The notes below the pieces were generated by a model. The model made no database searches and had not been told where the DNA came from. It worked only from the letters and a program-made list of their open reading frames with translations. From positions 1-64,000 of the forward strand of contig NZ_LGKP01000027.1 of NCBI RefSeq assembly GCF_001306135.1: a DNA stretch of 64,000 nucleotides, read 5' to 3'. Below are positions 15,558 through 31,805 of the stretch, piece by piece. The DNA is from Herpetosiphon geysericola. Lineage in GTDB: Bacteria; Chloroflexota; Chloroflexia; Chloroflexales; Herpetosiphonaceae. Position 1 is the stretch's first letter. The number at the start of each line of letters is the position of its first letter. The translations under genes were made by a program, and so were the position numbers.

Positions 15558-18500
15558 TTAGTTTTTGAGCGTGTATGGTAGCCAAATCCGATACGTCGGT
15601 TGGTCAACGGTTGCGGTTACGCTTGGCGTTTCCGTTTGGGTTGGCGTGTTGGTCGGCGTAGTGCTTGGAGTCAACGTCACAGTCGGCGTATTGGTCGGTG
15701 TCAGCGTGCCAGTCGCGGTTGGTGACGGCGTATTGGTATTGGTTGGCGTATTGCTGGCCGTCACGGTTGGCGTGTTGGTTGGCGTGTTGGTCACGGTCGG
15801 CGATGGCGTATTGGTCGCGGTTGGCGATGGCGTGACCGTTGGCGTAACATTGGCAATGTTGAGAATTGGCCCCCAAACCTCAATCGCCGCAATTTTGCCT
15901 TGATCAACATTGCCCGGCTGACCACTTGGCAAACTAATATTCACCGCTCCATCACTAATATTGGTGCTGAAGGTTTTGGTAATCGGGCGGAAGGTTGCGC
16001 CAGTTTCGCTGAAAATATCGAAATTGGTCAACACCGTCGTACCTTCAATTTGAACATTGAATTTGCGCTGGTTCGGGCCTGGCCGCCCATTGGTTCCCCA
16101 ATAGAGTTCGGCAAAGTGCAATCGCACCGCATAGGTTCCAGTGCTGCTGACCGGAATCGTGTATTGAACTGGCGAGCCACTTGTATTGCGCTCGGAACAA
16201 TACAAACGATCAAAGTCGCGGGTCACATTGTAAATTTGTGGGCACGAAACCCCTGGAATCAAAACATAGGTGCCACCGCCACTTGAGTATGGGCGGCTTG
16301 TACTGCTATCAGGACTCCAAACAGCACCGTCGTTGGTCGTCCAATCACGATCGCCGCTGTTAATTCGCGCCACAATATCGCGATAGCTCAAACGGAAGAA
16401 ATCGAAAATAAATGAGATCGTGTTTGGCGTTCCATGGTTGGTTGCCAAAATCCCAGTTGGGGTTCCCGTATTGAAAAACCACAATGGAACATTGATTGTG
16501 CCAATTGCAATCCATGTGTTGCCTGTCGTTTTATAGTAGGCAGTTATGGTCTGCGCAGCAGGATTACCGTCTAAACGCAGGTCGATATTGCTCACACCAG
16601 GCAAAACGATGCTTGGATTATTATTTGTTGGATTGATTTGTAGGTTTCCTGCAACTTCCATGGCAAATTGCAACCCAGTGTCGCCACTGGTACCATCGCC
16701 ATTGAGATTGGCGGTCGCCACCAATTTCACGTAGTTATCTTGGTTGGGCCCAAAGAACAGGCCCGCCGCTTGATTGCCCTCAGGCGTGCGCCCAAGGAAC
16801 ATTTCAGTAATCCGCGTTTCGACTCGGAAATTGCGATGGGGATCAAAGCCAAGTTGTAAGGCATTGGCTTGGGTATTAATCGCACCAGCATTAGTGCCTT
16901 CGGTGGTGATGATGTTGGTAAAACCACCAGCAGCGCCAACCGCAATCTTGGCTTCAGCGGTACGGGTTAAGCCGTTGGTAATTTGAACCCCAGTAAAGCC
17001 AGTGTTGGCAACTTTGCCCAATGGCGCATCGCCAGGATTCCAATTGAACTCGACTGGCAACTTGGTATTCGTGCCGTTGGCAGCATCGAAATACAACTGA
17101 TCGTTGACATCGAGAATCCCATCGTTATCATCGTCAGGATCGGTCAAATCGGAGATCATATCGCCATCGAAATCGTTGGGCACGCTAGCACGGCTACATA
17201 AGTTGGTGCCATTTTGATCTTCATCAAAATCGGAGTAGCCATCGTTATCGCTATCGAACGCGCTGGAATATGGCGGCGGTGGCGGACAATTGGGCAAATC
17301 TTCTGGCTCAAGGATGGTAATTGCATCGCTGCCAAATTCGGCCACGTAAATCACGCCCTTGGCATCGGTTACCACATCAAGCGGTTGATTGAAGTTGGCC
17401 AAGCTTTGGATGCTGGTGGGACTACCATTCGCATCGAGTTGGACGCGGCTCACATCTTGATTTTGGCCATAGGTTGCTACAATCAAATTGCCTTGCAACG
17501 CGCCGCCAAAAGCATTGCTAATGTAAGCAGTGATCCCGTTGGTTGATGGCCGGAAATCGTAGGTCAAAGCTGGTGGATTGTAGTTTGGCGGCGTTGGCAA
17601 ACCTTGGGCATTGCCATTGTTGAGCACACATTCGCCGCGGGCTGGGTTGGGATGCCCACCATATGAGCCTTGAGTCACAATTTTGAGCGTATCGGGCAAA
17701 TAGCGTGGGTTGATTTCAACGCCACCAGGGCATTGGGCTGCGCTCGGCGTATCGCCGTAGCCATCGTTGCCGCCGTTGACATTGGCATACAACTTATTGT
17801 TTAGCCAAATAAAATCATAGACATTACGATAGCCAGTTGCAAAAATTTCAAACTGGCCAGCAAACGGTGTTAAAGCAGAGGCACTATTGACGTTTTTAAC
17901 GTCAATCCCGGCGCTTGGAAAGCCTGCACTGCGCACATTGGCGCGCAAAATTGCCGCCGAAAGATAATATTCGGCCAAATTGCTGAAGTGAGCGCTTGGT
18001 GCACCATTATTAGTGTTGCTCGACGACGAAATATACAGCCAGCCATCTGGACCCCAGCCAATGCTGTTGGTGCTATGGTTTTCGCGTGAACGAGGCAAAC
18101 CTTTGATAATGTCGGTTGAAGTAGCAAAATTATTGGTGCTGAGCAATTTGCTAATCGTGCCAGAACGGGTGTTGATTTTCTGCGAGGTTGTATCGCTGTT
18201 GTAGCCATAGCGTGGGTCGCTATGTGAAACATACAAAATCATGTTCGCAGGCGTTGAGGCAGGGTCAAACAAAATCCCAATCAATTGGCGGCCATTAACT
18301 CCGGTTGCTGGCGAGCCATCATCATTAGTATTAGGATAATTGTAGATTGTTTCGATAACTTGGACGGCGGTGGCTTGATGGGTAGTTGGATTAAGCGTAA
18401 TCGCAAAAATCCGGCCATTGAATTGGCTAACATACAAGCGCCCATCGGGGCCAAAAATCATGCCGGTTGGGCTATCGAAGAGCGAAGCACCAGTTAATCC

Positions 18501-28962: not shown

Positions 28963-30549
28963 TCAAAGAGTGATTTGCTCGATTGTGCTTAACTGATTGG
29001 CTATGCCGAGCAAGCTTTGAGCAATATAGGCGGGCACATGCTCGGCCCAACCGAAAATAAAGCTTACATTTGGCTCAGCGGGCGGAGCAACCGCGTGCGG
29101 ATACGGCGCAATTGTGATCAAAAATGCTTGGGCATTGGGGTTGACCTCGGCCAAATACTTGCGCCAAACACTCACAAAACTTTTGCCACCATGGCTATCC
29201 TGTGCCCATTCCTCGTTGTCGGTAAGCGCAATTACCACATCAACGACCTCACGCCGAGCGTACAAATAGGAAATGGGCGCTGAAACCGCCGTACCACCGC
29301 CAATCTTGATCGAAATTTGCTGGGTAATGTGCAGCAAACTGGGCTGCTGCATAAGCTTTATCTCGACAACCTTCGTATCAAAGGGCAGCAGTTGCGCCGT
29401 AGGATTGCTGCGATAGAGCGAGCCAGCGAAAATGCCAGCAATATCGACATAGCGAACGTGTGATTTGGGGTTGAGCCTACCGCGCATCGAGCCAGAAACA
29501 TCCGGTGCAATCACCACCCGGCCAGGAATTACTGGCATATTCTCAAAGGCCAGTTCGAGCATCTGCGCAAGGGTTTGGCGAATCACGCCTTCTTGCTCAT
29601 TCATTGGCAGGAAGGCCATCCAAGCAGCATGCAGCCGAAAGGGCAAAATTTTGGCTCGGCGCAAGGCTTCAAGGTCGCTCAAACGGCCAACTACATAGTC
29701 AATCATCGCAGGATCGTGAAACACGCCAGCGCGTTGCAACGCTGCCAAATGGCGCAGCAAGGCAAAGTAGGGCATTTGCGTCATCAATACGTGCCACAAT
29801 TCACGATCTGGCTTAATGGCACCAGTCACAATTTCGTAGGGCAAACGTCCAGTTTCAACCAAGGCTCGCTGTTCGTTTGGGTCGCTCGTGCGCTTCAATT
29901 GCTCCAACGCAGCAATTTGCGGCAAGAGCGTGGGCGCTTGCTCGGCCCATGTTTCACGCCAGCATTCGCGATCGATGAGATAACTGAACAAGGCATTGGT
30001 GCGATCATCGACTGGTTGCGGGCGGGTGAGCCGCAGCACATCGCGCAAGCTCATGCTGCCAGCGTTCGTGCCACCATATTTAATTGCGTGATATTCGCTC
30101 AGGTTTAGCAACCAAGCATTGATCGTTTGCTTGATCGCGCGACCCATGCCGGGCCGAATCTGGCGCGAACGCACAATTTGCACAAAATCTTGCAAGTCGC
30201 CAGGTGTAAGAATAATGCGCTTGAAAATTTGGCGAAACAAAGCCAAATCGACAGTTGATAGCACAACCAAGCCAATAATTGGTTGAAGGCGCATGGTTGC
30301 TTGTTCACGGGCATAGACCAAGGCTTGCGCAGCAAAAAGTGGGTTCTGGGCCACCATTGCTTTGTACAACCCCAGCGTCAAGGCATAATTGGTGCCTTTC
30401 GAGGCATAAAATGTCGAGCCAAGTGTATTGGTCAACAACATTTGCACATAACGTTCAGCCAAACTGCGTTGATAGGTTGGCAAGCCATGATAATTAAGCC
30501 CGTTAGCATCGGCAGGGGCGGGTGCAAACAGGCCGCGAACAACGTTCAT
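28963..30549 (-). CDS. rsr: Ro60-like RNA-binding protein (TROVE and VWA domains)
   Basis: 528-residue ortholog of the Ro 60 kDa autoantigen. Residues about 15-300 are the helical HEAT-like TROVE ring, with the characteristic RPGMGRAIKQTINAWL and YHAIKYGG stretch near 130-160. Residues about 335-528 form a von Willebrand A domain with an intact MIDAS D-V-S-G-S motif near 348 and TDNEEW near 440. In other bacteria Ro binds Y RNAs, aids survival after UV or oxidative damage, and joins RNA quality-control complexes with exonucleases. The ATG at 30549 follows GGAGGT; the TTG at 30561 overlaps that site and is unlikely. Two structured RNAs lie directly upstream on the same strand. Confidence 0.92.
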   Translation of the reverse strand: MNVVRGLFAPAPADANGLNYHGLPTYQRSLAERYVQMLLTNTLGSTFYASKGTNYALTLGLYKAMVAQNPLFAAQALVYAREQATMRLQPIIGLVVLSTVDLALFRQIFKRIILTPGDLQDFVQIVRSRQIRPGMGRAIKQTINAWLLNLSEYHAIKYGGTNAGSMSLRDVLRLTRPQPVDDRTNALFSYLIDRECWRETWAEQAPTLLPQIAALEQLKRTSDPNEQRALVETGRLPYEIVTGAIKPDRELWHVLMTQMPYFALLRHLAALQRAGVFHDPAMIDYVVGRLSDLEALRRAKILPFRLHAAWMAFLPMNEQEGVIRQTLAQMLELAFENMPVIPGRVVIAPDVSGSMRGRLNPKSHVRYVDIAGIFAGSLYRSNPTAQLLPFDTKVVEIKLMQQPSLLHITQQISIKIGGGTAVSAPISYLYARREVVDVVIALTDNEEWAQDSHGGKSFVSVWRKYLAEVNPNAQAFLITIAPYPHAVAPPAEPNVSFIFGWAEHVPAYIAQSLLGIANQLSTIEQITL

Positions 30550-30591
30550 GACCACCTCCAAATTATAAGCAAGGAAACACCACTTCTCTCG

Positions 30592-30685
30592 AAAAAAACC
30601 ATGGCCGAAGCCGAATCACGCTTGCGAATCAAACGCTGTGAATTGGGTTGGGCAACTACATCACATCGATTCGACTTGGCCATGG
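30592..30685 (-). ncRNA. Candidate Y RNA: long hairpin RNA ending in a U-run, next to rsr
   Basis: About 94 nt on the - strand, 43 bases before the rsr ATG. The ends pair: CCATGGCC (30685-30678) with GGCCATGG (30606-30599), a single bulged C, then AAGUCGAAUC with GAUUCGGCUU containing one U-G wobble, giving about 18 pairs. Seven U follow at once (30598-30592). The interior can form CGTTTG-ATTCG-CAAGCG and TGTGA...TCACA hairpins. The wobble pair is possible only in - strand RNA. An 8-pair end helix, one bulge and a 3-pair helix is the layout of Ro-binding Y RNA stems, though there the bulge is on the 5' side. It could instead be a strong terminator or attenuator. Confidence 0.6.
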
Positions 30686-30697
30686 GGCCACAATAGG

Positions 30698-30803
30698 GGA
30701 GCCTAGCAGGACTCGAACCTGCGCCCGAAGCAATTCCTACTATCACCTCGCGAACGAGGAAGTTGCCGTAGAAGTCTTTGCTCTACCAACTGAGCTATAG
30801 GCT
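30698..30803 (-). ncRNA. tRNA-like RNA with expanded anticodon region (second Y RNA candidate)
   Basis: 106 nt on the - strand with an 8-pair acceptor helix (GGAGCCTA / TAGGCTCC), U8-A9, a canonical D arm (GCTC-AGTTGGTA-GAGC) and a canonical T arm (GCAGG-TTCGAGT-CCTGC). Between D and T arms are 55 nt instead of the usual ~25, with no 5-pair anticodon stem. This part holds a CCTCG-TTCG-CGAGG hairpin and a TTC-TAC / GTA-GGAA helix. CTTCTAC looks like an Arg(TCT) anticodon loop but its flanks do not pair. No CCA is encoded. It cannot be a normal tRNA. Bacterial Y RNAs are known to mimic tRNA D and T arms and to lie beside rsr, as here. Automated tools may call it a tRNA. Confidence 0.6.
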
Positions 30804-31331
30804 CCGTATTAAGGATGAAGGATGAGGGATGAAGGATGAAATCAAACCCACCATTGTTGCACAACCCACCAATTGTTCCGCTCGCCCATAGCCTCATTTC
30901 CTCTGCGCCTCTGCGTTAAAACCCTACCTCGCGCTCTTCGCAGTTTCGGCCTTCGTGGATCATCTCAGGTGATACTAACTCATGGTCACAATGGTTCTAA
31001 GAAGCGGCTGATTAAAGCCCGCATTCGCCACGTTAACATTGCACGGTTCCTCAGGTAGCTGCATACGACTCCTTCAAACGGTATGCTGAACGCAAGGCTG
31101 CTGAGGAAAAGGCGTGGAACTTCGGAATGAGCGAAGTATGTCCCACAAACACCTCAGCAAACTCTCACTTGTCTCCCACAAGCAGGCGAGGAAGTAAACT
31201 AGATTGAAAATACCCCACCTCGCCAGCTCGTTGATTCTCTCCCACAAGCGCTACGCCATTAATTTTGTAATCAAACATTGGCCAGCGATTCCTTGGACTA
31301 AAGTCAATGCCTGCTCCGCTCGTTCTCTCCC
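30804..31331. repeat. Intergenic region with heptamer repeats
   Basis: About 530 bases without a credible gene. 30808-30840 is a tandem of GGATGAA/GGATGAG heptamers; 30885-30965 carries the 'ctctgcgcctctgcgtt' and 'ctcttcgcagtttcgg' words found in the other repeat regions. Two similar 'ctctcccacaag'-like words near 31172 and 31237 are the only feature of the rest. Nothing else is recognised. Confidence 0.55.
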
Positions 31332-31805
31332 TCAAGCGGTTTTTTTGGCTTTGCCGCGCCATGGCAAGCGCCACGAGGTTGTTGGTTCGGGCGCTGTCTC
31401 AATCTGCGCCAATTCCAACACTTTGCGCACATAACTGCGCACTTCGCCGTGGCAAGTATCCAAGTGCTTGGCAACCTTGGCGGCATCTTCCACCACCACC
31501 GGCACACGCAAACTTTGGTCAAACCACGAAACAATTCCGGTTACGTCGCGCATAAGTTTGGTTGGCGGCGTTAAGCACACCACCCGAACCAACACATCAG
31601 TGCGTTTAATTTTTGGATGCTGTACCGTAAACATGGGGCTGGCAATATAATTTGCGTAGATCAACACTTTGGCAATCAGCAAGCGATAGCGAAGGCTGTC
31701 ATCACTGATTGAACCAGTGTCTACGACCCATAAATCCAACCCAGGCCGGGCGGGGTCGAGCGAACCCGCAACAATATCAATGCGGGTGGGATCTTCGAGC
31801 GTCAT
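31332..31805 (-). CDS. Hypothetical protein
   Basis: 157-residue soluble protein. The N-terminal part reads TLEDPTRIDIVAGSLDPARPGLDLWV as a beta-strand-rich region, then a helical LRYRLLIAKVLIYANYI segment, suggestive of small DUF6572-like proteins, but this is only a resemblance. The C-terminus is basic. The ATG at 31805 has GAGG about 8 bases upstream. It is isolated, and no neighbour hints at a role. Confidence 0.55.
   Translation of the reverse strand: MTLEDPTRIDIVAGSLDPARPGLDLWVVDTGSISDDSLRYRLLIAKVLIYANYIASPMFTVQHPKIKRTDVLVRVVCLTPPTKLMRDVTGIVSWFDQSLRVPVVVEDAAKVAKHLDTCHGEVRSYVRKVLELAQIETAPEPTTSWRLPWRGKAKKTA

Follow-up and report, generated by a model that had tools for sequence, protein, structure and literature searches.

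The window analysed here, a stretch of 64,000 nt from the Herpetosiphon geysericola genome, carries on its minus strand the rsr gene (28963..30552), an orthologue of Ro60/TROVE whose product scores above the cut-offs of the Pfam families vWA_Ro60 (60.7 bits) and TROVE (49.5 bits). Among named records, the nearest are H. llansteffanensis (90% Rsr identity) and H. giganteus (87%). A tRNA-like RNA (30698..30805, minus), which the original prediction had placed next to rsr, lies about 145 nt upstream of the start of this gene, and its position beside a Ro60 orthologue is thus confirmed. Between the two lies a second conserved stem-loop RNA (30597..30685, minus; fold z-score −4.42), found in 6/6 Herpetosiphon genomes and composed of a long terminal stem with two inner hairpins, followed by a U run. 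This RNA was considered as a canonical Y RNA and rejected, as a Y-type internal loop is missing from it and its covariation does not exceed that of shuffled alignments. A simple scan of positions 30540-31350 revealed no promoter-like or terminator-like site.

The tRNA-like RNA is matched by the Rfam tRNA family RF00005 on the minus strand at 30804-30698, with 49.8 bits (E 1.1e-7; gathering cut-off 29), while 45 nt in the anticodon arm stay unaligned; the span used here, 30698..30805, also counts the −1:73 pair, formed by 30805 with 30698. The 5′ strand of the acceptor stem, GAGCCUA (30798..30804, minus), pairs with the 3′ strand, UAGGCUC (30699..30705, minus), giving seven pairs, and G-1:C73 (C73 at 30698) extends the helix to the eight pairs originally described. 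The D arm (GCUC/GAGC, with GG in the loop; 30780..30795, minus) and the T arm (GCAGG UUCGAGU CCUGC; 30706..30722, minus) are both aligned by RF00005, as expected from the description of them as textbook tRNA arms. A strict arm scanner found exactly one place in the 64-kb window, which is the tRNA-like RNA. Applied to shuffled loci, the same scanner found nothing, and across 225 kb of control loci other than rsr loci it reported only one ordinary tandem tRNA pair, present in two overlapping loci. Rfam searches of the window, at gathering cut-offs and at E<5, returned only tRNA plus chance matches.

The RNA is kept in all six Herpetosiphon genomes found, and its D and T arms are invariant in 6/6. 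Two clades of congeners differ at acceptor pair 2-71, which is A-U in one and G-C in the other, and the −1:73 pair, which is G-C in the window genome, is C-G in three congeners. These changes are compensatory, which indicates that the helix is maintained. It could be proposed that the RNA is a decayed tRNA pseudogene into which an insertion fell by chance. Such decay would fit the lack of an anticodon, the RF00005 score, which is weaker than those of most tRNAs of the same genome, and the absence of an encoded CCA, which was noticed at the outset; CCA is encoded by 47/47 of the other tRNAs found in the genome. However, invariant arms, compensatory acceptor changes and the conservation of the module at the same place in two other genera are all at odds with it, and we find this explanation barely credible. 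Energy calculations are a weak point: the tRNA-plus-Y fold described below has −34.9 kcal/mol (−36.9 when constrained), but the minimum-energy fold is a different one, at −38.8 kcal/mol, and the fold z-score is only −1.87.

The anticodon arm is where the RNA departs from a canonical tRNA. The D and T arms are separated by 56-57 nt in the six Herpetosiphon genomes, and an intact 5-pair anticodon stem with a 7-nt loop is absent from 6/6. The initial description of the RNA as having no anticodon stem therefore stands as far as an intact stem is concerned, although it is not absolute: when a variable loop of 5 nt is assumed, positions 27-31 and 39-43 form 3/5 pairs in three of these genomes, and in the remaining three they form 4/5 around a central C.C mismatch. 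The RNA was not called in one run of ARAGORN; with introns allowed (locus L031), the program reported a 'tRNA-Arg' with a 36-nt insert. An alternative explanation is an intron-bearing tRNA, in which removal of the insert would yield a normal tRNA. In all six Herpetosiphon genomes, however, the sequences on either side of the insert cannot pair into an intact 5-pair anticodon stem, so that its removal restores no arm, and no group I or group II intron family scored in the window. Comparison of homologous loci, which had been suggested as a check, showed no normal 76-nt tRNA in relatives, and the insert is kept in 6/6 Herpetosiphon genomes.

The insert itself is 49 nt long (30726..30774, minus) and consists of a 7-pair helix (P1), an internal loop, a 5-pair helix (P2) and a cap. 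The 5′ strand of P1, CUUCUAC (30768..30774, minus), is equivalent to the 3′ strand of the Y stem in YrlA, and the 3′ strand, GUAGGAA (30734..30740, minus), to the YrlA 5′ strand; the consensus is CUUCUAC with GUAGGAG, and the first pair is C-A in the window. The P2 hairpin, CCUCG-UUCG-CGAGG (30746..30759, minus), forms a cap in the place where an ordinary Y stem has its free ends. P1 is followed by a conserved tail (30726..30733, minus) with the sequence UUGCUUCG, whose counterparts in relatives read UUCCUUCG, AUACUUCG or UUACUUCR. Nineteen copies of the insert were aligned (A3), derived from the six Herpetosiphon genomes, from genome G049 of the same family and from G052, G053 and G055 of the same order. 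Standard pairs occupy 97.4% of pair cells in this alignment, and the covariation score of 0.234 exceeds the 0.137 of shuffled alignments (0/500 reach 0.234). As shuffling takes no account of relatedness, the slid controls, which do not exceed 0.127, are more telling.

A covariance model of the insert (R1) gave 64.2 bits at the insert, its single match in the 6.1-Mb window genome. Among 400 Chloroflexota genomes, R1 matched seven, and all 16 places lie within about 1.5 kb of rsr; G052, G053 and G055 stand outside the R1-matching genomes of this sample, and their copies come from a separate search. By its pair counts in A3, the insert follows the plan of a Y stem, with an outer helix, an asymmetric internal loop and a 7-pair inner helix. 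The consensus of the YrlA family RF02553 shows the same plan, namely a 6-pair outer helix, a 5 x 8 internal loop and a 7-pair helix. According to the original prediction, the RNA is a Y RNA module derived from a tRNA whose anticodon arm gave way to a different fold; this proposal is strengthened by the conservation and covariation of the insert and by the restriction of its closest relatives, as recognised by the model, to rsr loci. It can also be refined, as what took the place of the arm is very probably the Y stem itself; binding of Rsr by the insert would follow from membership in that family.

Were the insert a Y stem with a closed end, its halves, once swapped, would be expected to model ordinary free-ended Y stems. 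A second model (R2) was therefore made by cutting the insert at the cap and exchanging the two halves, using 17 of the 19 rows (two identical ones were dropped), and was trained on inserts only. In the 6.1-Mb genome, R2 found one match, at 31156-31102 of the window on the minus strand, with 42.0 bits. This free-ended Y-type hairpin (31102..31156, minus) contains the same two strands in opposite order, has a small hairpin where the tRNA-like head would be and lies about 300 nt upstream of the tRNA-like RNA. As this hairpin had been spotted by eye before R2 was built, its match bears out an earlier reading; the majority of the remaining R2 matches had not been read beforehand. Equivalents of the hairpin are present in the five congener loci searched. 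Overall, 14 matches with E<1e-3 were obtained, across 10/11 sources of rsr loci, the sole source without a match being G054, which ends just past rsr; none was obtained in 22 further loci, which carry phage TROVE genes or distant Rsr genes. This distribution adds to the case for the predicted Y module, and the insert is therefore very probably the Ro60-binding Y stem.

The swapped-halves result bears on a further explanation, in which the RNA is a structured tRNA decoy beside rsr, acting for instance as bait for anticodon nucleases or as a regulator in the rsr leader, and the insert is not a site for Rsr. The position of the RNA upstream of rsr on the same strand suits such a role. Nevertheless, a match of the swapped halves to free-ended hairpins of the same locus would not be expected of a decoy without an Rsr site, and we judge this version decidedly unlikely; a decoy role in addition to Rsr binding may exist. 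Local gene conversion could explain the motif shared with the same-locus free-ended hairpins, and the stem would still be common to both. Just upstream of the free-ended hairpin, the window also contains a hairpin GGCGAGG..CCUCGCC (31229-31170, minus) with the edges GAGGUG and ACUUCCUC, which resembles a minimal Y-type hairpin.

The closest known counterpart is YrlA (RF02553). In PMC8394870, the 5′ and 3′ ends of YrlA are described as forming a large stem, to which a tRNA-like domain is added, with the basal stem holding Rsr. In both RNAs, D, T and acceptor elements of tRNA type are attached to a stem that consists of an outer helix, a 5 x 8 internal loop and a 7-pair helix, and both genes lie beside rsr (for YrlA, PMC8394870). 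In RF02553 alignments, the order of the YrlA parts is Y 5′ strand, T arm, acceptor 3′ strand, loop, acceptor 5′ strand, D arm and Y 3′ strand; in the window RNA it is acceptor, D arm, capped Y stem, T arm and acceptor, i.e., the unpermuted order of a tRNA. The ends of YrlA pair in the Y stem and its acceptor is closed by a loop, whereas the window RNA ends at the acceptor and has its Y stem capped. By the order of its parts, the window RNA is circularly permuted relative to YrlA and hence distinct from YrlA itself; it appears to represent an already known type of Ro60-binding Y RNA whose ends have been relocated. The RF02553 model (gathering cut-off 69 bits) gave no match at E<5 around the window RNA, and in searches of eight genomes it exceeded the cut-off in 0/8. 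It bridges neighbouring units in G049 (33.4 bits), with weak bridging matches in G053 and G055 as well; these are only suggestive, because RF02553 also matches ordinary tandem tRNAs (G000 contig 44, 38.1 bits). Full-text literature searches, whose coverage leaves out key Y RNA papers, returned no description of a Y RNA in tRNA order, and one may have been published.

Taken together, we read the window RNA as a Y RNA in tRNA order, with the capped Y stem as the presumed handle for Rsr and the tRNA elbow and acceptor as its head, and assign this reading a probability of about 0.83. Its architecture, conservation, linkage to rsr and relation by permutation can be taken from the compared sequences. 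The molecule would run from the acceptor 5′ strand through the D arm, the 3′ strand of the Y stem, the cap, the 5′ strand of the Y stem and the T arm to the acceptor 3′ strand. The UUCG-capped stem, in the position of the anticodon arm, is the predicted docking handle for Rsr, while the elbow and acceptor would form a head that meets tRNA-modifying and tRNA-processing enzymes and an effector. Most likely, the head would tether Rsr to an effector such as PNPase, or gate it. This part of the model is drawn from the Y RNAs of Deinococcus and from YrlA, and from PNPase in RYPER, as presented in PMC8394870 and PMC4726728. The window RNA would resemble the Deinococcus Y RNA of RYPER (PMC4726728 and PMC8394870) in having a Y stem expected to bind Rsr and another domain able to meet an effector; it differs in that an entire tRNA elbow, whose acceptor ends are open, serves as its head. 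Since the ends of the RNA lie at the acceptor, maturation by RNase P and a 3′ tRNA nuclease is predicted, unlike in YrlA. Expression, Rsr binding, the processing of the ends, the identity of the effector and the route of permutation are what we infer beyond this. Compared with a canonical tRNA, the RNA has the acceptor, D and T arms and scores over the RF00005 gathering cut-off, but it has neither an intact anticodon stem nor CCA, and its acceptor helix comprises eight pairs including −1:73.

Related loci show how this arrangement is distributed. G049, G052, G053 and G055 carry two to six capped copies upstream of rsr, interspersed with free-ended Y hairpins. The backbones in these arrays are diverse, including Lys-like ones with CCA, Glu-like ones, a class II type with a long variable arm and one without a D arm. 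More distant Rsr genes are also accompanied by capped RNAs (three in G098, and others in G002, G038 and G068). At least one capped copy is present in 14/25 genomes of the class with an Rsr match; among the other 11, some contigs end near rsr, and for the most part only about 1 kb upstream was covered. In G068 (L046, upstream of 1358, minus), TTGACA-N17-TATCAT, a promoter-like sequence read by eye, directly precedes the capped tRNA-like RNA. In G055 (L086, region of 17864-18010), a tRNA-like RNA appears to contain, in addition to the capped Y stem, a second small insert in the T loop (CCCAGAGGG).

Some relatives offer points in favour of an intron. In G049, the anticodon arm is split as GUGGAC[insert]UUGUAAUCCAU, with a loop like that of tRNA-Thr(UGU), and a copy in G055 keeps the loop CUUUUAA after the insert and encodes CCA; a copy in the haloarchaeal virus HGTV-1 is annotated as 'tRNA-Asp + intron'. 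The insert occupies the anticodon arm, as in intron-containing tRNAs. However, it matches Y-type hairpins, and Herpetosiphon has no anticodon arm to restore. Uninterrupted tRNA genes are present for Thr(UGU) in G049 and for Lys(UUU) and Glu(UUC) in G055, in a survey that took in part of the weak tRNA matches of these genomes, which means that the split copies are not the only source of these tRNAs. An intron would also leave unexplained why the insert occurs only beside rsr and why its swapped halves match free-ended Y-type hairpins. An intron-bearing tRNA is therefore quite improbable for the window RNA, while splicing may take place in some relatives. It is more likely that the split-arm copies of these relatives began as tRNAs that received the stem.

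A second type of insert was described by a sequence-only model, R3, which matched 3/400 genomes, two of them outside the class, with Rsr adjoining in all three. In this type, the 3′ side of the internal loop has ACCUUG ahead of P2, a sequence similar to aAaAcUuG in the YrlA consensus. R3 did not match the R1-type RNAs, and R1 did not match the R3-type loci; as the two types are mutually unmatched, their unity rests on architecture. In three Herpetosiphon genomes, a second tRNA-like type occurs as well (L034 967-1101; L035 650-780 and 940-1070; L036 3498-3628), in which an intact 5-pair anticodon stem holds an extra hairpin and a capped Y stem; it is absent from the window genome.

Similar RNAs accompany TROVE genes in some viruses. 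Twenty phage loci were fetched by means of the TROVE/Ro60 protein (L141-L148, L240-L244 and L249-L255) and searched with the arm scanner, the first 13 also with Rfam. An insert-bearing tRNA-like RNA was found at only 3/20, namely in HGTV-1, in the crAss-like phage PhiCrAssBcn1 and in Streptomyces phage pSt2308, the last counted by the presence of the insert alone. The HGTV-1 RNA (L142 971-1102), which lies 2.8 kb upstream of the TROVE gene, has the same capped-stem plan, with UUACUUCG after P1. In PhiCrAssBcn1, two unannotated capped copies stand in tandem just downstream of the TROVE gene (L244 5611-5754 and 5859-5999), and relatives of this phage have counterparts in which P1 and P2 show paired changes. 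The count of 20 leaves aside four additional crAss loci (L245-L248), which were retrieved via the RNA itself. A pattern scan of viral contigs and an Rsr-based viral scan returned nothing, and a scan with the HGTV-1 TROVE protein returned only HGTV-1 itself. BLAST matches of 36 nt between the HGTV-1 RNA and tRNA-Pro genes of Pseudomonas phages were rejected as relatives, being T-arm matches.

These occurrences in Chloroflexota, crAss-like phages and a haloarchaeal virus allow a broader reading, according to which tandem arrays of capped Y RNAs in tRNA order are widespread at Ro60/TROVE loci and arose repeatedly through insertion of the Ro60 handle into tRNAs of different identity, with YrlA as a permuted offspring cut from such arrays; we consider it evenly balanced whether this holds. 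When units stand in tandem, the half-unit between two successive Y caps would read as YrlA, offering a simple route between the forms, and the change of form could occur by duplication and re-cutting within arrays. A topological rule links tRNAs, Y RNAs and YrlA, the outcome depending on whether the cut falls at the acceptor or in the Y stem, and it suggests a source of the bacterial Y RNAs that mimic tRNAs. Open acceptor ends predict entry into tRNA-processing pathways, which the closed YrlA avoids. The viral examples suggest that Ro60 partners exist among the RNAs annotated or called as 'tRNAs with introns' in phages and viruses that carry TROVE.

Other structured RNAs were encountered at the phage loci. 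A permuted tmRNA (RF04321) is located near the TROVE gene of Brevundimonas phage Marchewka (L243 7707-7964), and in Gordonia phage GMA2 (L143 5632-6409), a tmRNA, a pistol ribozyme and a tRNA array lie just downstream of the Ro60-like gene.
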